A stretch of 64,000 nt of DNA from Polyangiaceae bacterium (GTDB lineage: Bacteria > Myxococcota_A > Polyangia > Polyangiales > Polyangiaceae), in NCBI GenBank assembly GCA_029941785.1, contig JAPYTK010000003.1:13216-77215 (forward strand). The letters are read 5' to 3'. Each line of letters begins with the position of its first letter. The first letter of the stretch is position 1. This document shows, one piece after another, positions 25,263 to 43,407 of the stretch. The notes beneath the pieces are model-generated. The model made no database searches, was not told the origin of the DNA, and worked only from the letters and a program-made list of their open reading frames with translations. The translations under genes were made by a program, and so were the position numbers.

Positions 25263-26507
25263 ATGGATAACAGCGCTATGCTCGGGCATCTCCCGATGCG
25301 CGTGCTCGCCCTGAACCAGTATTATGCCCCGGATGCGTCGGCGACGGCACAGCTGTTGACAGACTTGTGCGAGGATCTGGTGAAGGCTGGTGATGAGGTG
25401 CGGGTCGTGGCGAGCCGTGTCCAAGGCGATCGTCGCTTGCCGGCGCACGAGTGCATCGACGGTGTCGAGGTGGTTCGACCGTGGTCCACCGGGTACGGGA
25501 AAAGTCGCCTAACATATCGTTTTCTTGATGATTTGTCCTTCGTGGCAGCGGCGGCTTCGCGTGCGTGCGTCGTGGCGAGACCGGATGTGATCTTGGCCCT
25601 GTCCGCCCCGCCAATGGTCGCGACGGCCGCTGCGCTGGCGGCCCGAGGTCGAGAGCTCCCGCTGGTGCATTGGGTCCACGATGTGTATCCCGACATCGCG
25701 TTGGCGACCGGCGTACTCCCGCGACGCTCGGCGCTGGGCAGCACGCTGCAGATCTTGAGCCGCATGACCCATCGCCACGCCGCCATGAGCATCGCCGTGT
25801 CGTCGAAGATGGCCGAGATCCTGAAGGCCCATGGGCAGTCCGCAGATCGGGTGCGCGTTCAAGAGAATTGGGCTGATGGGACGGCCATCCAACCGCGACC
25901 CGCCGCGGCGACTTCGTTCCGAGCGCGCCACGGTCTGAAGGGGCGATTTGTGGTCATGTACAGCGGGAATCTGGGTCTCGTTCACGACATCGCCACCCCC
26001 ATTCGGGCTGCCCACGAGCTGAGCAGCTCATGCCCCGATGTGGTCTTCGTGTTCGTTGGAGCGGGCGCACGCCTCGCGGAGGCTCGGGCCCTGGCCGGCG
26101 AGGCTGCCAACATTCGCTTCCTTCCGGCGCAGCCTCGCGGAGAGCTAAGCGACAGCTTGGCGGCGGCCAACCTGCACCTCGTCTCGTTGGCGGAGGGAAT
26201 GGAGGGCCTGGTCGTGCCGAGCAAACTCTACGGTGTGATGGCTGCGGGGCGGCCTGTCGTTTACATCGGGCCCGCTCAGAGTGAGGTGGCGCACGTCGTT
26301 CGGCGTCACGAGCTAGGTTGGCGTGTCGATCCCGGTGATGCCGCGGGCTTGGCGGCGATCGTCGCGGACGCTACCCGCCGTGGTGACGACCTGGCGGCAT
26401 GCGGCGAGCGAGCCAGGCGCCGGTTTGTCGAGCGTCACGAGCGTGCCGTTGCGACCACCTCGCTTCGAGGTCTGCTGTTGGAGGCGGCAAACTTGCGAGT
26501 ACAATGA
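25263..26507 (+). CDS. glycosyltransferase family 4 (WbuB-like)
   Basis: MRVLALNQYYAPDASATAQLLTDLCEDLVKAGDEVRVV, YSGNLGLVHDIATPIRAAHEL; start may be internal. Confidence 0.88.
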   Translation: MDNSAMLGHLPMRVLALNQYYAPDASATAQLLTDLCEDLVKAGDEVRVVASRVQGDRRLPAHECIDGVEVVRPWSTGYGKSRLTYRFLDDLSFVAAAASRACVVARPDVILALSAPPMVATAAALAARGRELPLVHWVHDVYPDIALATGVLPRRSALGSTLQILSRMTHRHAAMSIAVSSKMAEILKAHGQSADRVRVQENWADGTAIQPRPAAATSFRARHGLKGRFVVMYSGNLGLVHDIATPIRAAHELSSSCPDVVFVFVGAGARLAEARALAGEAANIRFLPAQPRGELSDSLAAANLHLVSLAEGMEGLVVPSKLYGVMAAGRPVVYIGPAQSEVAHVVRRHELGWRVDPGDAAGLAAIVADATRRGDDLAACGERARRRFVERHERAVATTSLRGLLLEAANLRVQ

Positions 26508-26565
26508 ACACCGGCTTGGTTTTGCGCTACCAAAGAGGTGGTGGCGCCATGGTCGCCACGAAGCC

Positions 26566-28521
26566 ATGACGAGTTTTATTGCGGCATTTTTCATCGCGGC
26601 CTTGGTCGTGCTCGTTTTGACGCCCTACGTGCGTCAGGCCGCTCTGCGCCGAGGCCTGGTGGCGACGACGGGCCACCGTCATGTACACACCGAGAGCGTT
26701 CCGCGGATCGGTGGTCTTGCGATCGCTGCTGCGATCTTCGCTCCCATCGTGGGCCTTTTCTTTGTCGAATCCACGGTGGCGACCTTGGTGCAGAGCGAGT
26801 CGCAGAAAGTCATGGGTCTCTGCCTAGGGGGCGCCGTGCTTTGCTTGGTCGGCTTCATCGATGACACACGCGGACTGAGCGTTTGGCCCAAGTTGCTCGC
26901 CCAAGTGCTCGTTGCGATGTTCGCCTTCTATTGTGGCTTTCGTATCGAGTCGGTGTTGTTGCCATTCGTCGGCGCCATCCCCATGGGTGACGCGGCTTTG
27001 CTCGTCACGGTGCTGTGGATCGTGGGGATCACCAACGCGGTGAACTTGCTCGATGGTCTTGATGGACTGGCTGCGGGGGTCGTGTTCTTTGCGGGGATCA
27101 GCAATCTCGTCGTCGCGCTGGTTGCGGGGGCGGCTTTTTCTGCGTTGGTCATGTCGGCGTTGCTCGGCGCGGTGGCGGGCTTTCTGTTCTACAACTTCAA
27201 CCCGGCCCGCATTTTCATGGGCGACTCGGGCAGCTACCTCTTGGGTTACGTCATGGCCGTTACGGCGCTGGTGGGCGACAGCTCCAAGGGTTCGACGGCG
27301 GTGGCCCTGCTCGTGCCGATCGTCGCCTTGGGAGAGCCCATTTTCGACACCGTCTTTTCAGTCGTGAGGCGTTATCTGGACCGCCGCCCCGTGTTGTCTC
27401 CGGACCGTGGCCACCTGCACCATCGTTTGCTCGACCGCGGGTTGACTCAAAGGCGTGCTGTCTTGTCTCTTTACGGGATCACGGTCTTGTTCACGGTATC
27501 GGCGATCGCGATCTACATCGGACGACGCTGGCAGGTCGGCGTGGCCTTGCTCATCGTGAGTCTGGGCGTATTGGCCATGGTCCGATTGATGAGCGGACGG
27601 ATCGGCATGCGTGAATCACCACGAGCGAGCTATGGTGAGCTGAACGATCCGTCTGTTCGGGTGAGCGACGAGCGCCGGGCGATGGCCGAGTACGCGTTGC
27701 GCGAGCGAGCCTTGCAGCGGCTCGGCGCAGCGTTTGCGGCGGCGGACATTCCCGCGATGTTGGTCAAAGGAGCGGGTCTTGCGCAGACGGTGTACCCGAA
27801 ACCCTGGCTTCGAGAGATGGGAGACATCGACATTCTCGTCCTGCGGCAGGATCGAGGGCGGGCGATCGATGCCCTCGTGGCTGCCGACTGCGAACTGCTC
27901 GGTTCGGATCGAGGGCGGCGGATCAGCGCTGAGGCAGCGGGAACCCGGCAGTTGGTTGTCCGCGTGGGGCAACTTGGCTGGGAGATCGATCTGCACACAC
28001 GCTTGGACAAAGTCGTTGGGCGCAACATCGATTACGAAGCCGTGTTCGAGCGCGCTGCGCCGATCGAGGATCCCGCGCTGAACGGCTTCGTCGTGCCGAG
28101 CATCGAGGATCATGTGCTCTTTCTCGTCATTCATGCGGCCGCGGCCGAGTTTGATCATGCGGCCACGTGGGGCGATCTCGAGCTTCTCCTCGCTCGAGAT
28201 CTGGACCACGACCTGCTGCTCCAGCGCGCGAGGCGATGGCATCTAACGACTTCTCTGCATGTGGTTCTCCGCACCTTGCAGGTCCTCGATTCGGAGCACG
28301 TCCCCGCCGGTCTCATCGAACAGAGCGCGCCCACATGGCTTCGGCGCAAGCTCCTTGGGCGACTGTATCGAATAGGGCAATTTCCGGTCACGCTCGCGCC
28401 GCGGGAGCTCGGTTGGCGCTGGATCGTGCGCCAGTTGCCTCTGCGAGATGATGCACTAAGGTGGTGCCTCGGCGTGATGGTGTATGGCTTCCGCCGGATG
28501 GCGGACCGAGTAAGCCCATGA
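26566..28521 (+). CDS. fusion: WecA/MraY-like polyprenyl-phosphate glycan-1-phosphate transferase + lasso-type nucleotidyltransferase (NTP_transf_5-like)
   Basis: N-half: HTESVPRIGGLAI, VGFIDDTRGL, NAVNLLDGLDGLAAG, IFMGDSGSYLLGY, RGHLHHRLLDRG. C-half: AADIPAMLVKGAGLAQTVYPKPWLREMGDIDILVLR...IDLHTRLD. Single uninterrupted ORF; start MTSFIAAFF chosen over track start 26323. Confidence 0.88.
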   Translation: MTSFIAAFFIAALVVLVLTPYVRQAALRRGLVATTGHRHVHTESVPRIGGLAIAAAIFAPIVGLFFVESTVATLVQSESQKVMGLCLGGAVLCLVGFIDDTRGLSVWPKLLAQVLVAMFAFYCGFRIESVLLPFVGAIPMGDAALLVTVLWIVGITNAVNLLDGLDGLAAGVVFFAGISNLVVALVAGAAFSALVMSALLGAVAGFLFYNFNPARIFMGDSGSYLLGYVMAVTALVGDSSKGSTAVALLVPIVALGEPIFDTVFSVVRRYLDRRPVLSPDRGHLHHRLLDRGLTQRRAVLSLYGITVLFTVSAIAIYIGRRWQVGVALLIVSLGVLAMVRLMSGRIGMRESPRASYGELNDPSVRVSDERRAMAEYALRERALQRLGAAFAAADIPAMLVKGAGLAQTVYPKPWLREMGDIDILVLRQDRGRAIDALVAADCELLGSDRGRRISAEAAGTRQLVVRVGQLGWEIDLHTRLDKVVGRNIDYEAVFERAAPIEDPALNGFVVPSIEDHVLFLVIHAAAAEFDHAATWGDLELLLARDLDHDLLLQRARRWHLTTSLHVVLRTLQVLDSEHVPAGLIEQSAPTWLRRKLLGRLYRIGQFPVTLAPRELGWRWIVRQLPLRDDALRWCLGVMVYGFRRMADRVSP

Positions 28522-28802
28522 GTTATTCCGACGACCAACGATTCATCGCGAGCGACGATGCGCTCGCGCGGGTGCTCGATGGCGAACTCGTCATGCTCGA
28601 CTTGAAGTCGGGAACCTACTTTGGGATGAACGAGGTCGGCGCTCGCATCTGGGAGATCTTGACGGCAGGAGAGAATATCGCGAGCGCCGTGGAGACATTG
28701 ACGTCCGAGTTTGCCGTCGATCCGCCGACGGTCCGAGAAGATATCGAGTCTCTCCTCGTGCAGCTTGCGGAGCGAGACTTGATCAAGCCGGTCGAGGCCT
28801 GA
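28518..28802 (+). CDS. PqqD-family protein (lasso B1 / RiPP recognition element-like)
   Basis: DDALARVLDGELVMLDLKSGTYFGMNEVGARIWEIL...LVQLAERDLI; ATGA overlap with upstream fusion gene. Confidence 0.9.
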   Translation: MSYSDDQRFIASDDALARVLDGELVMLDLKSGTYFGMNEVGARIWEILTAGENIASAVETLTSEFAVDPPTVREDIESLLVQLAERDLIKPVEA

Positions 28803-30553
28803 TGGTGACGCAGCTGGCGCCATCGGATTTGTGCGAGATCTCCGCGGCCGCGTGCGATCCGTCGCCGCCGGTTGCGGGCAAGGACCCGGCCCAGAGCCGT
28901 GGCGCTCCGGTGTTGCCGGGGTCGCGGCCTGCGGTCGCTTCGGCTGTTTCCCCCTGGCGGCTCCATTCGACGGTCGTCGCGCTTTGCTGTTGCGAACTCG
29001 GCGCGCGGGTCTGTGGAGTGCTCTCGTTGCTGGCGCTGACCTGGTCCCGATTTGAGATGGCGCTCTGGCTCGCAGCGGCGGTCAACCTGCTCGCGGCCCT
29101 CCGCGGTGTCATCGGTGGGCGCGCGACAGAGCACGCTTTGCACTCGGTATGGGGAGGGGTCATCGACGCGACCCGGCGAAGGTCGCTCAGCGGTCTGCGT
29201 TCCCGCGATCAATCACAACAGTTGGCCGCCTTGACCGAGGCGAGCGGGCACGTGGCTCACTTTCGAGCGGCGGTGGTCCCGCGGGCTTTGGCTCATGTGT
29301 TGGGCTTGGCCTTGACCGCGATCGCGGTCGTTTTCTGGCTGGGCGCATACTGGCTCCTCGTGGGGTTGGTCTTGGTGGTGTTGGTGGCTCCGTTCGTCTG
29401 GTTTGGTTATCGGAACTTGTCCCGTCGACGCCAGATGTCCTTCGAGTATTTCGTCGAAGCGAGCGCCAACTACGGGCTGCTGCTCGACGGTGCTACGGAG
29501 TTGCGCGCGCATGGGGTCGAGGCACGTCACGCTGAACAGCTCAATCAGGCGGTGGTGTCGATGGCAAGCGCCGAGCGGAAATCCTATGTCATTCGCAGCT
29601 GGCTGAACGCGATGCCGCTCGCGATTGGCTTTGCCGTCATGTTGTTTCCCTTGCGGGATATGCTCCCCGGCCTGGTGAGTCAGGCGGGCCGAATGGCCGA
29701 GTTTGGGGTCTTGGCCGCTGTCGGGGTGAGCTCGTTGCTCGGCATCGTTGCGGCTCTGCAGGGGTGGGCTCAAGCTCGGCCGTTTCTCGCGAGCTTGGCC
29801 CGATTTCTCCACGTGCCAGAGCGCATCCGCGAAGGGGGCACGCAAGGTGTCGACGTGGCCGGAGCGACCATCGTGTTCGAGCACGTGAGCGTGCATCATG
29901 ACGGGGCGACGGAAGGTACGCCTCACGCTTTTTCGTGTCGCTGGTCGCCCGAGCGCGGTCTCGCCTTGCTCGGCGACAACGGCACGGGAAAGTCGTCACT
30001 TGCTTGGTGCTTGCTCGGCCTGCTGTCGCCCAGTTCGGGGAAGCTGAGTTTTGGTGAGGTGCAGTCTGCTCAGGTAAACTGGTCGACAATTCGATCGAAG
30101 CTGGTCTTCGTGCCCCAACATGGCTTCGTGGCGCCAGAGCGCAGCATCGCTTGGCACCTGCGGCTACTTTCCTCGTCCGAACTCAGCGATGAGGCGATAG
30201 ACCGCGCCCTCGAGGCGGTGCAGCTCGACCGCACCCTGGGCCGTGACGCTCCGTTACGGAATGCCCTCGTGGGCGATCTGTCGGGAGGTGAACGAAAGCG
30301 GGTTCAGCTCGCCCGTGCTCTACTCGGCGGGCCCGAGCTGATCGTGTTGGATGAACCGGAGGCGGGCCTCGACGCGAATTCGCGCGAATGGTTGAAGACA
30401 TTTGTTCAGGGGTTGAGTGAGCAGTGTCGCGTATTGCTGATCGCGCACGACGAAAAGGTCATCCCTGAGTCGTTTCAGACGGTGAGCTGCAAGCGGCAGC
30501 CTCTCGCTCCGTCTCTGGAGAAAACCAGCTCCACCTCTGGAGAAAAAAAGTGA
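28802..30553 (+). CDS. ABC transporter, fused permease/ATPase (lasso D-like exporter)
   Basis: 583 aa; TM region, Walker A LLGDNGTGKSSLA, signature LSGGERKRVQLARALLGG, Walker B ELIVLDEPEAGLD. Confidence 0.9.
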   Translation: MVTQLAPSDLCEISAAACDPSPPVAGKDPAQSRGAPVLPGSRPAVASAVSPWRLHSTVVALCCCELGARVCGVLSLLALTWSRFEMALWLAAAVNLLAALRGVIGGRATEHALHSVWGGVIDATRRRSLSGLRSRDQSQQLAALTEASGHVAHFRAAVVPRALAHVLGLALTAIAVVFWLGAYWLLVGLVLVVLVAPFVWFGYRNLSRRRQMSFEYFVEASANYGLLLDGATELRAHGVEARHAEQLNQAVVSMASAERKSYVIRSWLNAMPLAIGFAVMLFPLRDMLPGLVSQAGRMAEFGVLAAVGVSSLLGIVAALQGWAQARPFLASLARFLHVPERIREGGTQGVDVAGATIVFEHVSVHHDGATEGTPHAFSCRWSPERGLALLGDNGTGKSSLAWCLLGLLSPSSGKLSFGEVQSAQVNWSTIRSKLVFVPQHGFVAPERSIAWHLRLLSSSELSDEAIDRALEAVQLDRTLGRDAPLRNALVGDLSGGERKRVQLARALLGGPELIVLDEPEAGLDANSREWLKTFVQGLSEQCRVLLIAHDEKVIPESFQTVSCKRQPLAPSLEKTSSTSGEKK

Positions 30554-30651
30554 GTGTTCTCGTGTATTGCAACGGCGAGCCGCTCAAGCCATACTCAAGT
30601 AAGACGGCCGCCACGTGGCGGTCGGGTGTGTTGAAAGGTCTCTTGTCATGA
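30550..30651 (+). CDS. possible small ORF (33 aa) MSVLVYCNGEPLKPYSSKTAATWRSGVLKGLLS
   Basis: GTG start overlapping the ABC-transporter stop (GTGA), stop overlapping the next ATG; too short for the ORF track. Confidence 0.2.
   Translation: MSVLVYCNGEPLKPYSSKTAATWRSGVLKGLLS
30608..30621. promoter_or_regulatory. 14-bp perfect palindrome CCGCCACGTGGCGG
   Basis: Perfect dyad upstream of the 30648 lipoprotein gene. Confidence 0.35.
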
Positions 30652-31982
30652 TGATCAACAGGTGCTTATTCGCCGCGGGTGTCGTCTCTTTGCTTTACCT
30701 CGGCATGGGACCGATCGCGTGCGGCGGTAAAGTGAACGTCAACCCTCCGATAACCTCGGCGACGGGCGGAGCCGGTGGAACGGGCGATGGCGGCACGGCC
30801 GGCGACGGCGGCACGGCCGGCGATGGCGGCACGGCCGGCCCTGGCGGTACGGGCGGCGATGGCGGCACGGCCGGCCCTGGCGGTACGGGCGGCGATGGCG
30901 GCACGGGAGCAGGCGGTACGATGAATAGCGGCGCCGATTTGTGCCCAGGCGATCCGTTCGATCTCGCTGTCGGCAGTACCTTGATGCTTCAGGGCGACAC
31001 CACCATGGCGAATGGTGACTACAGTGACTTCTGTGGCAACACGACGCCTGGCTCGGGCAACGATCTCGTTTATGCCGTGAACCTCCAAGGTGCGGCGACG
31101 GTGACCTACACCTTGAGCGCGCCGGGGATTTTGGACCCAGTAATGTACGCGCGTACGACGTGCGATGATAGCGGCACGACCACTTGGTGTCGTGACTTCA
31201 GCGCCAGTACCCGAATCAACAAGCGTCATGTCGACGCCGGCACCCACTTCGTGTTTGTCGATGGCAATGCCGGCACCTCGGGCGAGTACACGTTGACGAT
31301 TGCCGCCGCTGCACCCGCTTGTGGTGACGGGATCATCAACACGGGCGAGGCCTGCGATGATGGCAACACCATGGGTGGCGATGGTTGCGCTGGCGACTGT
31401 TCGATGGTCGAAGCCGGTGCCAATGACAGCTGCAGCGACGCGGCGGAAAACTTTATCAACCCGAATCTCCAGATTGTGATGTCGGGCAGCACCGTCGGCA
31501 ATACCCATCAGCACACCTTCGACGAGGCGAAGTGCACCGTCGGTGGTCAGATGGCGTCATCGCCAGTGGACAACGGAGCTCCCGACAAGGTGTTTCGTTT
31601 GGTTCCGACCGCCGATGGGACGATGAATCTCACGCTCGGCTTCGACGCGACGGGCATGGACGCGATCTGCGACACGAACGGCTTCAACGACCCCGGTTGC
31701 TGGGACCGTGTGCTGCACGTCAGGCATACTCAGGGATCGCTTGGTCCTGCGATTTGCGGCGGCGGCGAGGATATCAGCGACCCCTTGCCCGCCAACTGGA
31801 CAGTTCCCACCAATCAGATCGCGTGCGACATCTTCGGCGTCGATCCGGGCTACACCCAAGCGGTGTCCTTCGCGGTTCAAAATGGCGAGTCGTATTATGT
31901 CTTCGTGAGCGGTTACTACATCGATCCCGGCATGAAATTCGACCGCGGAAGCTACAACCTCATCGCGAACCTCACTCCATAA
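30648..31982 (+). CDS. secreted lipoprotein with Gly/Thr/Asp repeats and DUF4215-like motif
   Basis: Lipobox (GMGPIACGG); TAGDGGTAGDGGTAGPGGTGGDGG repeats; CGDGIINTGEACDDGNTMGGDGCAGDCS. Confidence 0.75.
   Translation: MMINRCLFAAGVVSLLYLGMGPIACGGKVNVNPPITSATGGAGGTGDGGTAGDGGTAGDGGTAGPGGTGGDGGTAGPGGTGGDGGTGAGGTMNSGADLCPGDPFDLAVGSTLMLQGDTTMANGDYSDFCGNTTPGSGNDLVYAVNLQGAATVTYTLSAPGILDPVMYARTTCDDSGTTTWCRDFSASTRINKRHVDAGTHFVFVDGNAGTSGEYTLTIAAAAPACGDGIINTGEACDDGNTMGGDGCAGDCSMVEAGANDSCSDAAENFINPNLQIVMSGSTVGNTHQHTFDEAKCTVGGQMASSPVDNGAPDKVFRLVPTADGTMNLTLGFDATGMDAICDTNGFNDPGCWDRVLHVRHTQGSLGPAICGGGEDISDPLPANWTVPTNQIACDIFGVDPGYTQAVSFAVQNGESYYVFVSGYYIDPGMKFDRGSYNLIANLTP
30783..30908 (+). repeat. degenerate tandem repeat ggcgatggcggcacggcc, encoding Gly-rich linker
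   Basis: Multiple adjacent copies of GGCGATGGCGGCACGGCC / GGCCCTGGCGGTACGGGC. Confidence 0.85.
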
Positions 31983-32532: not shown

Positions 32533-33456
32533 TTACGAGGCTCGAGAGAGCTCAGCGAGAACACGCGCGTGGACCCTCGGCAAGCACGCGTAGCGCCGCG
32601 GGTAGTGCAACTCGTAGACGGGCACGACCCTCGCGATGCGATCGAGACTGTCGAGCTCCTCGAGGAGCGCGCCGCGATCCGATGGGTCGAGCCGATACAG
32701 GTGGCGCGCGAGCTCGGTGACCGCGTCGCGACGGCTCTTTCGCTCTAGCCGGAGTGGACCATCGGACGCGAGTGAAAAAATGACCGCCACCTCTTGGGGG
32801 CCGCTCGCGACGGCGCGTCGCAGGCGCCACTTGTGGTTCCGCGCCGAGGCGCGCTCCTGTGCTTCTCCCCCGACCGCACCGAGCGAGTCACCGAAGAGCC
32901 GCGCGAACGGGTAGCTCGGGTGCACATGGATCCCATCGGGGTGAACGCGCAGCACCGCCGAGTCGTCGGAGACCCATTTTGCGGGGGGGCACCCGGCGCT
33001 CGCGAGCGTGCTCTTGCCGAGCCCGGGATCCCCCATGAACATGGCGGCCTTGCCCTGATGCGCGATCACGCTCGAGTGAAAGGCTGGGGTGTCGGGGCAG
33101 CTCACGGCGTTGGGCAGGACCCGATCGATGAAGAGCTGGGCCATGATGGATTCAGGACAGCCCGGAACGGGCCGGCAGAGGATGTCGCGTCGGTCCTCGT
33201 CCACGTCGAAGTCGGCGTAGCCGTGGGCGCGTATGCGGTGGCCGCCCGCGCGCTTCACGATGGTCAGAAACGGCTTGCCGTCGATGTCATGCGTGTTGAC
33301 GATGTCCTCGGTCTGGAGCGCGCCTTGGTCTGTTGGTGGTGACAAACGCAGGAACAAGCTGGCCTCTCCGAGCCGAGCGACGTCGATCGGGCGACCGTAG
33401 TCCTCCAGAGAGATCGCGCTGGAAACCAGTTCACCGCTGATCGCGGTGAGCATCAT
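32533..33456 (-). CDS. HPr kinase/phosphorylase-like kinase (lasso K-type)
   Basis: 307 aa; HSSVIAHQGKAAMFMGDPGLGKSTLASAGC...WVSDDSAVL, HprK-like P-loop fold. Confidence 0.82.
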   Translation of the reverse strand: MMLTAISGELVSSAISLEDYGRPIDVARLGEASLFLRLSPPTDQGALQTEDIVNTHDIDGKPFLTIVKRAGGHRIRAHGYADFDVDEDRRDILCRPVPGCPESIMAQLFIDRVLPNAVSCPDTPAFHSSVIAHQGKAAMFMGDPGLGKSTLASAGCPPAKWVSDDSAVLRVHPDGIHVHPSYPFARLFGDSLGAVGGEAQERASARNHKWRLRRAVASGPQEVAVIFSLASDGPLRLERKSRRDAVTELARHLYRLDPSDRGALLEELDSLDRIARVVPVYELHYPRRYACLPRVHARVLAELSRAS

Positions 33457-33537: not shown

Positions 33538-33693
33538 TCAAACCTGCGGTTGCGACTTGTCCGCATGGGAACCGCCACCGCCGCGGGTGAACTCGCGCAC
33601 GTTACCGTAAGCTGTAAGTGCCGGCCGCGCGTACTTCTTGCGCGCGTCGGTCGTTTGCTCGCTTTGGATTTTTTCTTGTTTTTTGTCCGTCAT
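33538..33693 (-). CDS. lasso-peptide-type RiPP precursor (51 aa): MTDKKQEKIQSEQTTDARKKYARPALTAYGNVREFTRGGGGSHADKSQPQV
   Basis: Manual minus-strand translation. Leader YxxPxLxxxGxxxxxT motif, Thr at -2, Gly1 and Asp8 of putative core GGGGSHADKSQPQV; ATG overlaps stop of cyclase (ATGA). Confidence 0.87.
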   Translation of the reverse strand: MTDKKQEKIQSEQTTDARKKYARPALTAYGNVREFTRGGGGSHADKSQPQV

Positions 33694-35489
33694 GACCAAT
33701 CCTGTCGGAGCCAGAGCTCCATCGACAATACCATGCCGAAGTGAATGAGGTGTGAAGGTGAGGGAAGTCCTGCATCGAGAGCCGAACGGACCTCGTTCAG
33801 GTTGATGATACCAAGGTCTGCGAGCCGGCTGTCCGCGAGTAATGCGCTCACTTCGCCGCTATGCACTCGTACGTACACGTCTCTGAGATAGCATGAAAAC
33901 TCGGCCGCGTCGCGACGGGTGGCGACGGCACCGGGGAGCAGATCGACCATCGCGCGTCTTAGCATGGGCTTGCGTTTTCGCCACCCGCGGCGCAAACGGT
34001 GGCGTCTCGGCATGGCGAGAGCCAGCTCGAAGACGCGGCGGTCGAGAAAGGGATGGGTGACCTCCAGGCCGTGGAGCGTTCCGACGAGGTTGCAGTTCGC
34101 CGCGCTGATACGGATCCCGTGTTGTTCGAGCATGGCGCACATGGCGGCGCTCGATCGGTCGGGCCAGTTCTCGTCGAGGCTGTCACGCCGATCTGCGTCT
34201 ACGTGCTGCTGAACTCGTTTGGTCCAGCTCGGCGACAAAAACGGCGGCCTGTGACGCGGCCGAAGCTGGCGGGTCGCGAACCTCAAGCGGGCCGGAACCA
34301 CGCCTTTGATGCCCTGATACAAGCGGCGATAGCTTTGCAAGGAAAACGGCGCGCGATCGATTCCGGTGATCGTCGCTGCCTCACGAAGAGCCCCGGCTCG
34401 CAAGGCGTCGACACACTCGCTTCCGTTTTCGTCCACCATTTGGTCGCCCCCGAGCCCGGTCATCACCGTGTCGATCCCCTCGCGTCGAGCACGCGCAAAC
34501 AGCGCATCGAAACACGCACTCCAGGTTTGATAGAGCTGGTCGGGGTGCCGGCTATGAGGTCGTGTGGCCTCCTTCATCGCGCCCCCGTCTCCCGCAATGG
34601 CGATCCACGGCATGGACCACTTCTCCGACACGGCGCGGCCGATGGGGGTTTCATCGCAGTCCCAGCCGCTGAGGCTGCAGTGTAGTGCCGTCGGTGCCGA
34701 ATCCAGCGCGGCGGCTTGGCAGGCGATCGAGGAGGAGTCGAGACCGCCGGAGAGAATGACGCCGAGCTTGCCGGTGCGGGGCATGCGACAGCGAACGGCT
34801 TCACGAAAGGTCTCCGCGAACATCGTCGCCGCTTCTTGCTCGTCGACGTCGAGTTTGTGCCACGGATTGGGTTTCCAATAGCGGCGCATTTCGATTCCCG
34901 AGCCGTTCGCGATGAGTAGATGGCCCGGTGGCAGAGCCTCGATACCGTCGCGCAGAGAGTGTCCTTGCTCCTTAAAATCGCACGTCATGAAGAGGGCGAT
35001 GGCCAGCAAGTCAGGACGATTGTCCACGCCAGCGGCGATGAGCGCCTGTGATTCGCTCGCGAGGCGTAGGGTCGCGGCGTCTCGATGGAAATAGAGGGGA
35101 CGCATGCCGAGCGCGTCGCGCGCGGCGATAAGTCGTCGCTCGTGTTCGTCGTAGATCACAAACGCAAAATCGCCGATCAGTTGTCCGATGGCAGAGATCC
35201 CTCCCCGTTGGTAACAGCGTAATACGACCGTCGCGGCATCCACGTCGGCCTCGACCTGCAGGTCTTTGCGGTTGTGGATCTCCCCATCGATGATGACGTG
35301 CAGAGCCCCGCTTGAGGCGGAGCCGCCGGCCACGTACGATTGCGAGGCCATGGAGACGGACTGGATCTCCTTCTGCCACCGGAGTTCGCCGCGATGAGCC
35401 ATGGCGCGGGTCATCGCGGTGCAGGTCGCCGCCGTTGCGGTTCGAGGGCCGTCTGACGATCGCTGCAGCACGGCCGCGATGGCGCTCAC
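33690..35489 (-). CDS. asparagine-synthetase-like lasso cyclase (C protein)
   Basis: GTG start at 35489 overlapping B2 stop; GELRWQ...IIDGEIHNRKDL, LGVILSGGLDSSSIACQAAALD, GLGGDQMVDENGSECVDALR. Confidence 0.9.
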   Translation of the reverse strand: MSAIAAVLQRSSDGPRTATAATCTAMTRAMAHRGELRWQKEIQSVSMASQSYVAGGSASSGALHVIIDGEIHNRKDLQVEADVDAATVVLRCYQRGGISAIGQLIGDFAFVIYDEHERRLIAARDALGMRPLYFHRDAATLRLASESQALIAAGVDNRPDLLAIALFMTCDFKEQGHSLRDGIEALPPGHLLIANGSGIEMRRYWKPNPWHKLDVDEQEAATMFAETFREAVRCRMPRTGKLGVILSGGLDSSSIACQAAALDSAPTALHCSLSGWDCDETPIGRAVSEKWSMPWIAIAGDGGAMKEATRPHSRHPDQLYQTWSACFDALFARARREGIDTVMTGLGGDQMVDENGSECVDALRAGALREAATITGIDRAPFSLQSYRRLYQGIKGVVPARLRFATRQLRPRHRPPFLSPSWTKRVQQHVDADRRDSLDENWPDRSSAAMCAMLEQHGIRISAANCNLVGTLHGLEVTHPFLDRRVFELALAMPRRHRLRRGWRKRKPMLRRAMVDLLPGAVATRRDAAEFSCYLRDVYVRVHSGEVSALLADSRLADLGIINLNEVRSALDAGLPSPSHLIHFGMVLSMELWLRQDWS

Positions 35490-35932
35490 GATTCGACCAC
35501 CAAGAGCTTCTCGAACTTTAGCCCTTCGGCTTTCGCACGACTCGACTCGCTGCCGCGCGTTTCGACCCAGGCATGCGCCCGAAAGTCCTCGTGTGTGTTC
35601 ACGCCCATGACAAAGCGTACGTGCTTGCCCGCGCGCCGCATGAGGGAAAACTGAACCAGCGAGCGGGGCAAACACTCGCCCCTGAGGAGATGGCGCCGAT
35701 AGGCCGCATTCACGAGCTGCTCGGCGCGCTGCGCGTGTGGCGCATCGGGGGCCGAGGGGGTCTTCGCTCGGAAGAGGAATTGGATCCCCTTGATCGTCCG
35801 TTTGACGCCCAGCGTGAGCAGGGACGTCTCCATGAGAGGAGCGAGCAGCCAAGCCTGAGCCGCAAATTTCAATTCGCCGCGATCGAGCGATCGCAGTTTG
35901 CGAATGAATACGAGGGGTTTGCGAAGCACCAT
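35486..35932 (-). CDS. lasso peptide biosynthesis B2 protein (transglutaminase-like leader peptidase)
   Basis: 148 aa; RGECLPRSLVQFSLMRRAGKHVRFVMGVN...FRAHAWVE, Cys/His catalytic pattern. Confidence 0.9.
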   Translation of the reverse strand: MVLRKPLVFIRKLRSLDRGELKFAAQAWLLAPLMETSLLTLGVKRTIKGIQFLFRAKTPSAPDAPHAQRAEQLVNAAYRRHLLRGECLPRSLVQFSLMRRAGKHVRFVMGVNTHEDFRAHAWVETRGSESSRAKAEGLKFEKLLVVES

Positions 35933-36028
35933 AGGCGTTGGAATGGACGCACACTAGTCTATCAGTTGCATGAGCACCCCGATCATTCAAAATCGCGCGC
36001 TGACCTGGCGAGGCTCGGAGTAGCTGGC

Positions 36029-37780
36029 GTGGTCTGGATCCTTGGCCTCAATGCCCATCACGCTGACGCCTCAGCGTGCCTGTTGCGAGATGGGCAACTC
36101 GTGGCCGCGGTGCAGGAGGAGCGACTGGTTCGCGTCAAGCACGCGGCGGGCCTTCCGGTCCGCGCGCTCGCGTCTTGCCTCGAAGCGGGCGGCATCGACC
36201 TTGCGGCGATCGACCACGTTGCCGTCAATCGGGACAGCCGCGCGAACCGTGCAGCCAAACTGCGATACCTCGTCGCGCAGCGGCCCTCTCTATCCAAAAT
36301 CGCCGAGCGCTTGCGCAGTCGCGCGAGGGTAGGCGCGCTGGAGAGTCAGCTTCGAGCGGCCTTTCCCGGTCAGCGTTTGACAGCTCGCTTCCATCGCGTG
36401 CAGCACCACCTTGCGCACATGGCGTCCGCCGCCTACTGCTCGCCTTTCGACCCCTCCGTCTCCCTCTCGGTCGATCAGTTTGGTGACTTTGAGAGCGCGG
36501 CCTGGGGAGTCTGTCGTGGCAACCGCATCGAGCCCGAGGGGGCGATTCTGTTTCCGGACTCTCTCGGCACGCTCTACTCAGCCGTTACGCAATGGTTGGG
36601 TTTTCGCGATTACGGGGACGAGTACAAGGTGATGGGGTTGGCGGCTCACGGGAAGGACGACTTCGCCGAGGCGATGAACGCCCTCGTGACGAGTACCGAT
36701 AGCGGGCAGTACGCGCTCGATCTCAGCTACTTTCGTCACCACCTCCAGCGCGTTTATTCGATCGGAGATGATGGTCGTCCCGTGGTGGAGAACTTGTATG
36801 CCGGCGAGCTCCGAAGTCTGCTCGGTCCGCCCCGGGCGCAAGGCGAAGCGATCGAGTCGCGGCATCGTGATATCGCCTGCTCGCTTCAGCGGCGTTACGA
36901 GCAGACGCTGTTTGCCCTGCTTCGGCGACTGTACGAAAAGTACCAGCTTCCGGCTCTGAGTTTGGCGGGAGGTTGTGCGCTCAACGCAACAGCGAACGGG
37001 AAGATTCGAGCGCAGACCCCCTTTGAGCATCTGTTTGTGCCGCCGGCAGCCGGCGATGCAGGAGGCGCGCTCGGTGCGGCCCTGGTGACGTGGTTCCAGA
37101 TATGCCCGCAGGCGACGCGGACTCCCTTGCGGCATGCCTCATGGGGCCCGTCGTTCTCGGCTGAGGAGGTGGCGATCGAAGTCCAGCGGCGTCAGAACGA
37201 ACTGCAGGTGGCCGGTTGTGAAGTACAGGCTGGTGTTTCCGAATCGACGCGTTGCGACCTGGCCGCGGAGCGGCTCGCCAACGGCCAAGTCGTCGCTTGG
37301 TTTCAGGGCCGAATGGAGTGGGGAGCGCGCGCGCTTGGCCATCGCAGTATCTTGGCTGATCCGACCCGCCTCGAGAGCCGCCAGCGAATCAACGAATCGG
37401 TGAAGCGACGAGAGGACTTTCGCCCCTTTGCGCCGGCTGTCTTGCAGGAGGAGGTGGCGAACTGGTTTCACCTTGAAGGCTCCTCCCCCTTCATGACCGA
37501 GGTGGCGAGCATTCGCTCCGATCAGCTCGATCGCGTGCCCGCGATCCGCCACGTGGACGGCACCGCGAGGGTTCAGACGGTCGACCGCGTCCACCAGCCG
37601 CTCTTTCATAAACTGATCCGGGCGTTCTGCGAGCGATCCGGTGTGCCGATGGTGCTCAACACCTCGTTCAACCGCCACGAACCGATCGTGTGTACGCCCT
37701 CCGACGCGATCGATTGTTTTCTGCGAAGCGGTATCGATGCGCTCGTGATCGAGGACCACGTGATCACGCGGAAGGACTAA
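36029..37780 (+). CDS. carbamoyltransferase (NodU/CmcH/TobZ family)
   Basis: VVWILGLNAHHADASACLLRDGQLVAAVQEERLVRVKH, LAGGCALNATANGKI, GRMEWGARALGHRSILADP, MVLNTSFNRHEPIVCTP. Confidence 0.93.
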   Translation: MVWILGLNAHHADASACLLRDGQLVAAVQEERLVRVKHAAGLPVRALASCLEAGGIDLAAIDHVAVNRDSRANRAAKLRYLVAQRPSLSKIAERLRSRARVGALESQLRAAFPGQRLTARFHRVQHHLAHMASAAYCSPFDPSVSLSVDQFGDFESAAWGVCRGNRIEPEGAILFPDSLGTLYSAVTQWLGFRDYGDEYKVMGLAAHGKDDFAEAMNALVTSTDSGQYALDLSYFRHHLQRVYSIGDDGRPVVENLYAGELRSLLGPPRAQGEAIESRHRDIACSLQRRYEQTLFALLRRLYEKYQLPALSLAGGCALNATANGKIRAQTPFEHLFVPPAAGDAGGALGAALVTWFQICPQATRTPLRHASWGPSFSAEEVAIEVQRRQNELQVAGCEVQAGVSESTRCDLAAERLANGQVVAWFQGRMEWGARALGHRSILADPTRLESRQRINESVKRREDFRPFAPAVLQEEVANWFHLEGSSPFMTEVASIRSDQLDRVPAIRHVDGTARVQTVDRVHQPLFHKLIRAFCERSGVPMVLNTSFNRHEPIVCTPSDAIDCFLRSGIDALVIEDHVITRKD

Positions 37781-38130
37781 CCGTCGCGTGGATCCGGATC
37801 GTCGTGTTCGTTGTAATAAGCATCGAGGCTCTCGCCGGATACCGTCGCCACGATTTTCCCCTCGCGCTCGATGATCGATTGGCAACCGAGCCGGCTCGTG
37901 ATTTGTACGTCGAAGGCCTTGTCGAGGATGTCCTCTTCGTCCTCTTCCGCTTCACTGAGAAGATCGCCCCCTTGGGTTACGTACAGGTGGCAAGTTGAGC
38001 AAGCACACACGCCGCCGCAGGCATCGCCTTCCGGCGCGCCACACGCCCGGGCAGCCTCGAGCATCGTGGTGCCGAGCGAAACGTCTGTTTCCCAGGTGTC
38101 GTCATGACCGACAAAGCGAACGAGAGCCAT
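37777..38130 (-). CDS. fdx: [2Fe-2S] ferredoxin, isc type
   Basis: CGGVCACSTCHLYV...LGCQSIIE; downstream of hscA. Confidence 0.93.
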   Translation of the reverse strand: MALVRFVGHDDTWETDVSLGTTMLEAARACGAPEGDACGGVCACSTCHLYVTQGGDLLSEAEEDEEDILDKAFDVQITSRLGCQSIIEREGKIVATVSGESLDAYYNEHDDPDPRDG

Positions 38131-40103
38131 CAGGTGTTTCCTTCGTGGGAGGCGGCCGGCGAGCTTCGCCTCGCTTCGTGTTCGGCGACGTGAGCCTCGA
38201 CGCCTCGCGCGTGAGAGACCGTTTCGTCGACTTCGTCTACCCCTCGACCGGCGATGGCGTGGGCGATGGCCCGATCCATGCGTCGACCCGCGAAGGCCTT
38301 GCTCGTCTCGTCGAGGGTCTCGATTCCGGTCAAGATGGCGCCAGGGCTCGTTCCCGCGATGGCTTCGCTCAACGTTGACATGGCTTGCTCGATCGTGTCG
38401 CGTTCGCCATCTTGCAGCAGTCCGGGATCTTCCTCAAGGGCCCGGCGGGTGGCTGACACAATGCGCTCCGCTTCCACACGTCGTTCGACGAGCCGGCGCG
38501 TATCGAGATCCTGTTCGCCGTGATCGAGCGCCTCGAGCAGCATCTGCTCGACCTGCTCGTCACTCAGTCCGTAGCTCGGCTCGACTTCGACCTCTTGCTC
38601 GATCCCGGTGGTGAGTTCCTTGGCAGACACCGTGAGAAGTCCGTCGGCGTCGACTCGAAAGGTGACCTCGAGCCGGGCCATGCCCGCGGCCATGGGAGGG
38701 ATCCCCTTCAGCGTGAAACGGGCCAAGGACCGGCAATCTTGTACCAGTTCGCGCTCGCCCTGCACGATGTGAAGATCGAAGCCGGTCTGCTTGTCGGCAT
38801 AGGTCGTGAAGACCTGTCGTGCGCCGGCGGGGATCGTGGTGTTACGTGGCAGGACCTTCTCGACCACCCCGCCCATGGTGCCGAGCCCGAGGGAGAGCGG
38901 TAAGACATCGAGCAGCAAGATCTCTCCTGCGCGGTCCTCGCCGCCTGCGAGCACGTCGGCTTGCACCGCGGCGCCCATGGCGACAACGAGATCGGGGTCG
39001 ATGTCGGCGAGGGGCTCCTGTCCGAAGATCTCTTGCACGTAGTTTCGCACGTAAGGCACGCGGGTTGAGCCACCGACCAGGATGACGCCGTCGAGCTGAT
39101 CGGCATTCACGCCTGCATCGCGCAGCGCGCGTCGGCAGCTGCGGCCGGTTCGAGCGACGATGGGCGCGATGAGCTCTTCGAACTGCTCGCGGGTGATGCG
39201 AACGCTCGTTTGGCCTCCTCCACGCACGGGTAACTCGAGGTCGATCGCGGCCTCCTTCGTGAGGGCGTGCTTGGCTTGTCGTGCAGCGTCGAGCGCCAAG
39301 CGGACGAGCTCCCGACCTGCGGTGGTGTCTTTGTCTATGGCTTGCGCCTGCATGGCTGCGAGGAGGATCTCGGCCAGAGCGCGGTCCATGTCGTCGCCGC
39401 CCAGGGCGCTGTTGCCCCCCGTGGACTTGACCTGAAACACTCCACCATCGAGCAACAGAATCGTGATGTCGAAGGTGCCGCCCCCCAGATCGTACACCGC
39501 GAAGAGACCGTCCTTTTTCTTGTCGAGGCCGTAGGCCAGCGCCGCCGCGGTCGGTTCGTTGAGCAGGCGCAGCACCTCGAGGCCAGCGAGGCGACCGGCA
39601 TCCTTTGTCGCTTGCCGTTGTGCGTCGTCGAAATAGGCCGGAACGGTGATGACGGCGCCGCCGACACTGCGTAGTTCGTCCTCCGCGAGTTGTTTGAGCG
39701 CCTTGAGGATTTCGGCTGAGACTTCGACCGGGCCCACGACTCGGTCCGCACCGACCCGTAGGCGAACGGTGCGGGCTTCTTCGTCTGTTGTCGGGGCGAC
39801 GAATTCGAAGGTGCCAAGTCTTTTCGTCTCTTCGTCATCGGCTCCACGACCGATGAGTCGTTTCACGCTGACGATGGTCTCGCGCGGGTGACTACTCGCC
39901 ATTCGCAGGGCTTCGCGTCCGACAATGACCTGCCCTCGTTCGTCGTAAAACACGGCGGAGGGGACCAAACTCTCGAGATCGCAATTCGTGATCGGCGTGG
40001 GCTTGCCGTCGCGCATTCGCGCCACGATCGAATGAGTCGTGCCCAAATCGATGCCGATGGGCTTCGGTGATGCAGCGGGATCGAAGATTTCAAATAATGC
40101 CAT
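38130..40103 (-). CDS. hscA: Fe-S assembly chaperone HscA
   Basis: 657 aa Hsp70-family, [20 protein letters not shown], context isc operon. Confidence 0.95.
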
Positions 40104-40112
40104 GGCAGATGC

Positions 40113-40649
40113 TCAGTCGAGGAGTTGCTCTTCGATCGCCTCGACTTCTTCGAAGAAGCGCTTGAGGTAGCGCAGTTCACCCAGCGTGGGAAGGAGGGTG
40201 CGTAGGGTGTTCACGTCCCCTGCGGCCGAGACGAAACCGAGTCGCAACGCTTCGAGCACCTCCGCCTCCTTGGCGCTCATACTTTGGCCGAGTTTTCCGA
40301 TGCGATCCAGATCGCGTGCTTGTTTGGCCTCGGACAGTTCTTCGCGAACTTCCATCATTTCCATCAACAGAGTGGGGCTGGCCTTGGGAGCCGTGGTCTC
40401 GGATATGGCGATGCCATGATGTTCGAGCAAACGCTCCGCGCGTTGAACCGGGTCGCGGAGCTGTCGCCAAGCGGTGTTCACGTTTATCGCGCGGTCGAGA
40501 GCCATACGACGCTCGTTGGCCGGCTTGGTGGTGTAGCGATCGGGATGGAGCGCGGCGGAGAGATCGCGGTGGCGCGTATCGAGCGCCTCGAGATCGAGAT
40601 CGAAACGGGGATCGATCCCAAGCGTGCGGAAAGGATCGACGCTCATCAC
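40113..40649 (-). CDS. hscB: Fe-S assembly co-chaperone HscB
   Basis: DPFRTLGIDPRFDLDLEALDTRHRDLSAALHPDRY J-domain (HPD). Confidence 0.93.
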   Translation of the reverse strand: MMSVDPFRTLGIDPRFDLDLEALDTRHRDLSAALHPDRYTTKPANERRMALDRAINVNTAWRQLRDPVQRAERLLEHHGIAISETTAPKASPTLLMEMMEVREELSEAKQARDLDRIGKLGQSMSAKEAEVLEALRLGFVSAAGDVNTLRTLLPTLGELRYLKRFFEEVEAIEEQLLD

Positions 40650-40682
40650 AAGCTCAGCGGTTGGTGCGTCTGTCGCGGTGAC

Positions 40683-41117
40683 TTAGACGGCAAAGGACTC
40701 ATTGCATCCGCAGCTGCTTTTCTCCTGCGGGTTGCGAAAACGAAAGCCTTGATACATCAAGGTTTTTTCCCAATCGAGGGAGGTACCGTTGAGATACAGA
40801 ATGCTCTTCTTGTCGCAGAAAACGCGCACCGGCTGTGGTTTGACGTCGTCACTCTCTTTTGCTTGCACGTCGAATTCGAAGACGAGATCGCGCTTTCGCG
40901 GCTCCCCGTCGGCAAATTCGATGACGTAGGTGAAACCCGAACATCCGCCACCACGGACGCCAACTCGCAGCGCGGCTTCGGGCGTACCGCGCTTGCGCAG
41001 GTTGTCGTAGAGCGCGCGCGCGGCAGCGGGCGATAGCGAAAAGTCATAGCTTCGCTCGCTCGGCGCCGCCGTGCTCTTTGGCGCTCCGTTGTTCGTGATG
41101 GCCGCGGTCGATTCCAT
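40683..41117 (-). CDS. iscA: IscA-type Fe-S assembly protein
   Basis: LRVGVRGGGCSGFTYVIEFAD ... SSCGCNESF; C...CxC pattern. Confidence 0.92.
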   Translation of the reverse strand: MESTAAITNNGAPKSTAAPSERSYDFSLSPAAARALYDNLRKRGTPEAALRVGVRGGGCSGFTYVIEFADGEPRKRDLVFEFDVQAKESDDVKPQPVRVFCDKKSILYLNGTSLDWEKTLMYQGFRFRNPQEKSSCGCNESFAV

Positions 41118-41119
41118 GT

Positions 41120-41524
41120 CTACTCGCCAGTGAGGGCCCGGCTCGCTTCCTGTTTGGCGCGGAAATCCGCGATGGCGCTCTTGATGGCGTCTTCGGCGAG
41201 CACAGAGCAATGGACCTTGACCGGAGGAAGATTGAGTTCTTCGACGATCTCGGTATTTCGAATTTCGTCGGCCTGATCGATCGTCTTTCCTTTGATCCAC
41301 TCGGTCGCGAGTGAACTCGACGCGATGGCCGAACCGCAGCCAAAGGTTTTGAACTTGGCGTCTTCAATGACACCGTCATCGCTGACCTTGATCTGCAAAC
41401 GCATCACGTCGCCACATGCGGGTGCGCCGACGAGGCCGGTTCCGACGGTGGGATCGTCCTTGTCGAGAGAGCCGACGTTGCGTGGGTTTTCGTAGTGATC
41501 GATGACTTTGTTGCTATACGCCAT
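41120..41524 (-). CDS. iscU: Fe-S scaffold IscU
   Basis: MAYSNKVIDHYENPRNVGSLDKDDPTVGTGLVGAPACGDVMRLQI, LPPVKVHCSVLAEDAIK. Confidence 0.97.
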   Translation of the reverse strand: MAYSNKVIDHYENPRNVGSLDKDDPTVGTGLVGAPACGDVMRLQIKVSDDGVIEDAKFKTFGCGSAIASSSLATEWIKGKTIDQADEIRNTEIVEELNLPPVKVHCSVLAEDAIKSAIADFRAKQEASRALTGE

Positions 41525-41555
41525 GTGTCGTTTCCGTATCAGAGGTGGAGAATCA

Positions 41556-42779
41556 CTAGTGCGCGCTCCATTGAACGCTTTTGAGATCGATGCCGTCCTT
41601 GAACATCTCGTACAGAGGGGACATCTCGCGCAGCTTGTTGACTTTTTCGATCATCAAGTCTGCCACGTAGTCGATTTCTTCTTCGGTCGTGAAGCGACCG
41701 ACGCTGAAGCGAATGGAGGAGTGGGCCGCGTCGTCGCTCACGCCCATGGCGTGCAGCACGTAGGAAGGCTCGAGGCTCGCGCTGGTGCAGGCGGAGCCAC
41801 TCGAGACGGCAACATTCTTGATCGCCATCATCAACGATTCGCCTTCGACATAGGTGAAGGAGATGTTGAGGTTGTTCGGCAAGCGGTGTTCCATCGAACC
41901 GTTGACCGAAAGTTCATCGAGAGCTTCGGTAACCTTGTGGAGCAAACGGTCGCGTAATTCGCGCAGGCGCTTGGCCTCATCGACCCACTCGTCGTTCAAG
42001 ATCTGACACGCTTTGCCGAAGCCCACGATCGCGGGCACGTTCAGTGTGCCTGATCGCATGCCGAACTCGTGGCCGCCGCCATCTACCTCGGCTGTCAGGC
42101 GTACGCGAGGACGCGAACGCCGGACATACAGAGCGCCCACTCCCTTGGGGCCGTAGATCTTGTGTGCCGAGATCGACGCGAGATCGACGTTCATGTCCTG
42201 CACGTTGAACGGCGTCTTACCGATGCCTTGTACGGCGTCGGTATGAAACAAGATCCCCTTCTCCCGGGTAAGCGCGCCAATCTCTTTGATCGGCTGAATG
42301 GTTCCCACCTCGTTGTTGGCGAGCATGACCGACACGAGGATGGTGTCATCGCGAATGGCATCGCGGACCGCATCGACCGAGACCAGTCCGCTCTTGTCGA
42401 CCGGCAGGTACGTGATTTCGAAGCCCTCTTTTTCGAGACGCTTGCAGGTATCGAGCACGGCCTTGTGTTCGATTTTCGTGGTGATGATGTGTTTGCCGCG
42501 ACTCTGGTAGAAGTGCGCGACGCCCTTGATCGCGAGATTGTCACTCTCGGTTGCTCCCGACGTGAAGACGATTTCTTTTGGCTTGGCGGCACCGATCAGC
42601 TGCGCGATTTGTGCCCGAGCGTCGGCGACGGCTTCTTCGGCTGTCCAACCAAAGGCGTGACTACGGCTCGCAGCATTGCCGAACTTGTCGTTGAAGTAGG
42701 GCAGCATCGCATCGACAACACGCGGGTCGGTCGGCGTGGTCGCGTTGTAATCCATGTAGATGGGGAAACTGAGTGCCAT
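41556..42779 (-). CDS. iscS: cysteine desulfurase IscS
   Basis: [46 protein letters not shown]; track start 42995 is too far upstream. Confidence 0.97.
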
Positions 42780-42834
42780 GGGATTCTCGGAGGTGGGCGA
42801 TCGGGTCGTGGTCGTGGGACTGTGAACGAAGAGC

Positions 42835-43407
42835 TCAATGGTCTCCGGTTGGGGTGCTTCGGCAGGCGTAGAGCCCGGACACGAGTTCGGGTTCAGGTTG
42901 TTTTGCGGTGTGCACGGTGCACGAAGAGCAGGTTGGGATGAGTTCGTTTGGATCGCAGCTGCTGCAGGTCCGAAGATAGGCGAGGCTCGCCTCAAGTTCG
43001 TGCTCGAGCGTGCTCAAGTGCGCAACTTGCCTCCGTACTTCGTCGAGCTTTTGGCGGTAGACTGCTTCGATACTGGCCATCGCCTCGGGGGCGGATGGTG
43101 CGTCCTCCCACGCGCTCAAGATCTTTTGGATCTCTGTGAGACTCATCCCGAGATCGTGGAGCTTGCCGATCCACTTGACCCGGGTGATGGCGTCATCGGC
43201 GTACAAGCGATAGCCGCCCGAGGAGCGTTTGTGCGGCTCGAGCAAGCCGACTTTCTCGTAGTGATGAATCGCTCGCACCGTCTTGCCACAGGCACGCGCA
43301 AGATCACCGACGCGGATCAGGACATCCGACTCGGTACGTGGATCGGAAGCCGGTCCGGGACTCGAGTCCACGTCGACGACGACCGGTAGATGGTGAAAGT
43401 TACTCAC
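42835..43407 (-). CDS. MerR-family regulator with C-terminal Cys cluster
   Basis: [49 protein letters not shown]-term [20 protein letters not shown]. Confidence 0.88.

Follow-up and report, generated by a model that had tools for sequence, protein, structure and literature searches.

The window, a 64,000-nucleotide stretch of a Polyangiaceae contig, carries a lasso peptide locus that is split between the strands, the plus strand bearing N-B1-ABC-D and the minus strand B2-C-A-K (Table 1). Precursor gene A, flanked by the genes for cyclase C and the kinase-like protein K, gave exactly the translation reported in a preliminary description of this DNA. The TGA of the cyclase gene and the ATG of A overlap as ATGA, and the GTG start of the cyclase gene overlaps the B2 stop as GTGA. 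Because of these overlaps, translation of B2, C and A is apparently coupled.

Table 1. Features of the lasso locus and of its surroundings in the window
Feature	Position	Strand	Remarks
N, NTP_transf_5 (PF14907) domain	27679-28278	+	E 5e-29; C-terminus of ORF 26323-28521
B1, PqqD-type RiPP recognition element	28518-28802	+	PF05402 E 3e-18
ABC exporter (permease + ATPase), predicted	28802-30553	+	homologs adjoin related D-type clusters
D, predicted lipoprotein	30651-31982	+	Gly-rich linker, DUF4215 motif, beta-sandwich domains; conserved cluster gene
K, putative HPr-kinase-like tailoring kinase	32533-33456	-	HKDD residues, structure model, weak HprK_rel_A match
A, lasso precursor	33538-33693	-	51 aa; stop 33538-33540
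Core of A, GGGGSHADKSQPQV	33541-33582	-	14 aa
Leader of A	33583-33693	-	37 aa
C, lasso cyclase (asparagine-synthase type, SGGLDSS ATP loop)	33690-35489	-	NF033535 E 4e-63; PF00733 E 2e-32
B2, leader peptidase (transglutaminase-like cysteine protease)	35486-35932	-	NF033537 61.8 bits (cut-off 33); PF13471
NodU/CmcH-type carbamoyltransferase	35573-37780	+	
Ferredoxin-HscA-HscB-IscA-IscU-IscS type operon	37777-42995	-	

The product of A has class II features: a YxxPxLxxxG...T leader, Thr at position -2, Gly1 and Asp8. The core has no cysteine, so no disulfide is expected. A six-frame scan of the window for YxxPx[LIV]xxxGxxxxxT returned a single match, that in precursor A, with 0.046 chance matches expected, a figure that falls to 0.003 once Gly/Ala/Ser1 and Asp/Glu at core positions 7-9 are required as well. 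ORFs as short as A are frequent in this GC-rich window, and A could in principle be a chance ORF, the real substrate being encoded elsewhere. We rejected this exceedingly improbable reading since the motif expectation is low (about 0.05 in the window, with no other leader motif there), A is coupled to C through the ATGA overlap and, as described below, the precursor is conserved across relatives. Judged from its sequence, the 51-residue ORF can be called a class II lasso peptide precursor with near certainty. When the assembly was searched in full at the protein level, no second copy turned up, and no plasmid homologs were found. The preliminary description had pointed to lasso-leader models as a check: the leader was matched by both NCBIfam NF033521 (18.6 bits against a cut-off of 19, or 0.4 bit short) and NF033528 (22.2 bits, cut-off 33), each time under the curated cut-off, which is a point against the assignment. 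That A had gone unannotated fits these scores.

The cognate B1, B2 and C genes are all present in the window, B2 and C with their catalytic residues. SGGxDS of the cyclase is invariant in 6 aligned sequences, and C87 and H120 of B2 are also invariant. The NF033535 match of C sits under that model's cut-off, as do the scores of B1 with the lasso PqqD models NF033536 and NF033530; note that these NCBIfam models are taxon-specific and that the Pfam families match strongly. The B1 gene overlaps the stop of the upstream N as ATGA, and the ABC gene by one base (TGATG). A point against the pathway assignment is that B1 lies about 5 kb from A, on the opposite strand. In most relatives D-ABC diverges from B2-C-A-K, and B1 converges on K. 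This set was found, as far as the contigs reach, in G083, G114, G157, G158, G159, G170 and G171, and G080 carries it too, but with B2 not matched; in L026, K reads away from C and B2 was not detected. Gene content in the relatives is bounded by the ends of short contigs. By its recurrent gene order, D-ABC/B2-C-A-K/B1 is a conserved cluster unit.

The lasso locus adjoins an isc/hsc operon in the window and in three relatives. The operon listed in Table 1 is likewise found beside the lasso locus in L018, and in L027 and L030 ferredoxin and HscA are close to the lasso genes. In the window, the carbamoyltransferase gene separates the lasso genes from this operon and diverges from B2; L025 has a homolog at a distance of about 7 kb from its precursor.

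Precursor homologs were detected by protein search in 16 of the 184 genomes of the order, the window's own counted. The cyclase gene adjoins most of them and K many, and the order C-A-K is common. The precursor of contig CANJMI010000001.1 (Polyangiaceae MAG, L049) is the same as that of G159:C1. The family comprises 13 precursors, the window's included; for three of these (L019, L029, L159) the contigs are too short to show D, and they were assigned via K and the cyclase. Besides the GGGGSHADKSQPQV of the window, the family cores are GFGGSKSDAKTPRA, GFGGSNSDAKTPRA, GGSGRSPDGRFFRFKT, GPGGSVFDGDVGLIPS, AAVGSNNDGNLGQQRS, AARGSLADGGLGLQRSS, GSAGSRADGRTTQP, AGKKSNSEASKRPRN, AAAGTVGDGGAGLQPA, GAVGTQSDGGRTLQP, ASGKSGKEGGPGAKPRN and AAAGTVSDGGGLQPTP. 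Although these cores differ, the leader motif, Thr at -2, Gly/Ala1 and Asp/Glu8 are kept in all 13. The earlier proposal of a lasso precursor with Thr -2, Gly1 and an 8-residue ring closed by Asp8 is supported by this, since the acidic residue at position 8 is retained while its neighbours vary. Moreover, conservation beside the same B1, B2 and C genes, on which that proposal had made its case depend, was looked for in the relatives and is present. The closest precursor pair, L018 and L019, shows 12 codon differences, 7 of them synonymous, and these spare Asp8, Ser5 and the fixed residues of the leader motif.

The family cores are 14-17 residues long, with tails of 6-9 residues in which Gln, Arg or Lys often stands beside a Pro near the end. 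Ser or Thr occupies position 5 in 12 cores, the sole exception carrying Ser3 and Ser6, and a C-terminal Ser is present in 3 of the 13 and absent from 10. The cluster and its precursor family appear to be a new form of the already known class II lasso peptides, adding a conserved family of short, hydrophilic members from myxobacteria.

Other kinase-linked precursors were also observed. A second, large group in the same order (L160-L188), mostly arranged A-C-K-B1, has cores such as GGTGRRSDGPAMAKRV, often with Ser/Thr3 and without a C-terminal Ser. In the L166 and L167 precursors, the reading frame of the lasso-like leader and core extends into a longer protein tail (SSREAKEDIAYLDDAARKRL...), which may mean a fusion. 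The kinase-linked precursors of Mesorhizobium (L043-L055, L061, L062, L100, L113) have cores such as GGGGSTAIDASFPAHTPIGDLTFS, mostly with a GGGG or GGAG start, with Asp9 and, in every case, a C-terminal Ser.

Threading cannot be deduced from sequence, and a threaded product is what we infer. The preliminary description had taken the atypical core as a hint of an unthreaded ring or of a lock supplied by a modification. This part was not supported, as each feature has a characterised precedent in a published table (PMC12427821): the felipeptin A2 core begins GGGG, tails of 6 residues occur in achromosin and huascopentin, and eight characterised lasso peptides (benenodin-1, caulonodins I and II, caulosegnin I, citrulassin, lagmysin, lassomycin and sphingonodin II) have tails free of aromatic residues. 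Because of these precedents, the GGGG start and the short, non-aromatic tail fall within the known range, and neither an unthreaded ring nor a special lock is needed. The Gly-rich ring, made flexible by its four Gly, and the short tail without an aromatic residue would suit a branched-cyclic product, closed to the 8-residue macrolactam yet unthreaded, but the characterised lassos just named share these features and the family keeps its 6-9-residue tails with Gln, Arg or Lys next to Pro. We therefore consider a product of that kind quite unlikely.

The preliminary description had overlooked a mismatch between the kinase and its acceptor, the NTP_transf_5 domain coupled to B1 and the conserved lipoprotein-like gene D. 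In K, residues H126, K147, D163 and D164 are invariant in 26 aligned sequences and match the His-Lys-Asp-Asp motif of known lasso kinases (PMC9266682). The AlphaFold2 model (pLDDT 93), which Foldseek matched with PEPCK and with HPr kinase, allows us to predict an HprK/PEPCK-type fold with confidence. The residue modified by known lasso kinases is a C-terminal Ser (PMC9266682, PMC8498205), which the literature on these enzymes describes as extremely conserved in kinase-containing lasso clusters. This paeninodin-type acceptor is missing from the window core, which ends in Val.

A hydroxyl is nevertheless common in the rings. Ser or Thr at ring positions 2-6 occurs in 35 of the 37 distinct myxobacterial kinase-linked cores without a C-terminal Ser, as against an average of 24.4 of 37 (maximum 33) in 5000 within-core shuffles, a comparison that ignores relatedness and uses positions picked after seeing the data. 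The same holds for the comparison with the characterised lasso peptides that we take, from general knowledge, to be kinase-free, 24 of 52 of which have such a residue (Fisher p = 8e-7, with relatedness ignored and positions 2-6 picked after inspection). Ring Ser/Thr set against C-terminal Ser gave p = 0.014 within Myxococcota and p = 0.05 over all phyla in plain Fisher tests subject to the same two limits; with independent pairs on the K tree, too few for power, the median p was 1.

From these patterns K may phosphorylate the ring of the lasso peptide, a suggestion that we make tentatively. If K acts on the peptide, Ser5 in the ring is the most likely site, followed by Ser10. Modification of the tail instead, at Ser10 in the window core, would be a slight shift from the C-terminal Ser rule of the known kinases; we find this doubtful, since the L148 and L155 cores have no Ser or Thr in the tail and yet K is adjacent, Thr5 being the sole hydroxyl of the L148 core, AAAGTVGDGGAGLQPA. 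It is also possible, though not probable, that K leaves the core unmodified, serving another substrate, the leader or regulation, and that Ser/Thr5 is kept for ring shape. The frequency of ring Ser/Thr in lasso peptides with no known kinase agrees with this, as does the absence of a link to the missing C-terminal Ser after correction for K phylogeny, few as the pairs are, but K lies inside the B2-C-A-K block, has intact HKDD residues and recurs in D-type clusters. The family exposes a testable gap, the target of a lasso kinase where the usual C-terminal Ser is missing, and offers more than ten natural variants for probing the choice of site by the kinase.

The ORF that contains N joins a WecA-like glycosyltransferase-4 domain to the NTP_transf_5 domain. 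Given the overlap of its stop with the B1 start, N is translationally coupled to B1, and by the description of PsmN it is a possible PsmN-type tailoring enzyme. Weak homologs lie near the lasso genes of L022 and L025; the remaining D-type clusters showed no N.

Gene D, the neighbour of the ABC gene, is present as one full-length copy in the genome. A search with a D-only profile gave matches above 300 bits in nine genomes, and these were lasso-linked wherever the contig was long enough; the D matches in G084 and G156 begin at contig ends. D alone pointed to three further complete lasso clusters, in the previously unexamined genomes G159 and G157 and also in G171, with a weaker D (228 bits). 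Matches of about 200-245 bits in G170:C66, G170:C3, G171:C63 and G171:C506 had no linked lasso genes. The structure model of D (mean pLDDT 66) gave local beta-sandwich matches only, the best of which included collagen-binding and CUB domains. Our literature searches yielded no report on gene D, nothing that combined lasso peptides with DUF4215, and a single mention of lasso peptides together with Polyangia. The role of D is a further testable gap that the family exposes.

Taken together, A is very probably the substrate of a class II lasso pathway in which the B1, B2, C, K and ABC steps would each proceed via a conserved gene. B1 would bind the YxxPxLxxxG leader of A, and B2 would cleave after Arg37, one residue beyond the conserved Thr at -2. 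C would then activate Asp8 with ATP and couple it to the Gly1 amino group, so that the 8-residue Gly1-Asp8 ring closes round the tail KSQPQV, which side chains of Gln/Lys size near Pro12 would most likely hold in place. K would phosphorylate a hydroxyl of the precursor, and the ABC protein would export the product, whatever activity this may have. The computed monoisotopic mass expected for the unmodified product is 1305.606, after loss of water from 1323.617; a single phosphate would raise it to 1385.573.

Finally, we compared the locus with known systems. It resembles the split B1/B2 class II lasso peptides in having A, B1, B2, C and ABC, and in its leader motif, Thr -2, Gly1 and acidic residue 8, but it is myxobacterial, includes gene D and has very short, hydrophilic cores. 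To paeninodin with PadeK, and to ThcoK and SyanK, it is linked by having in its cluster an HPr-kinase-like gene whose product carries the His-Lys-Asp-Asp motif, a likeness by described motif; these kinases act on a C-terminal Ser, whereas the window core ends in Val and 10 of the 13 family cores lack such a Ser. Pseudomycoidin (PsmK and PsmN) likewise combines a kinase and a nucleotidyltransferase-type gene in one cluster, whereas here N, likened to PsmN by description, is fused in a WecA-like ORF and the C-terminal Ser is absent. Sphingonodin I/II, achromosin, huascopentin and felipeptin A2, for which we know of no kinase or gene D, share Gly-rich rings (GPGGITGD, GMGSGSTD) and 6-residue tails, a GGGG start or non-aromatic tails with the core described here.
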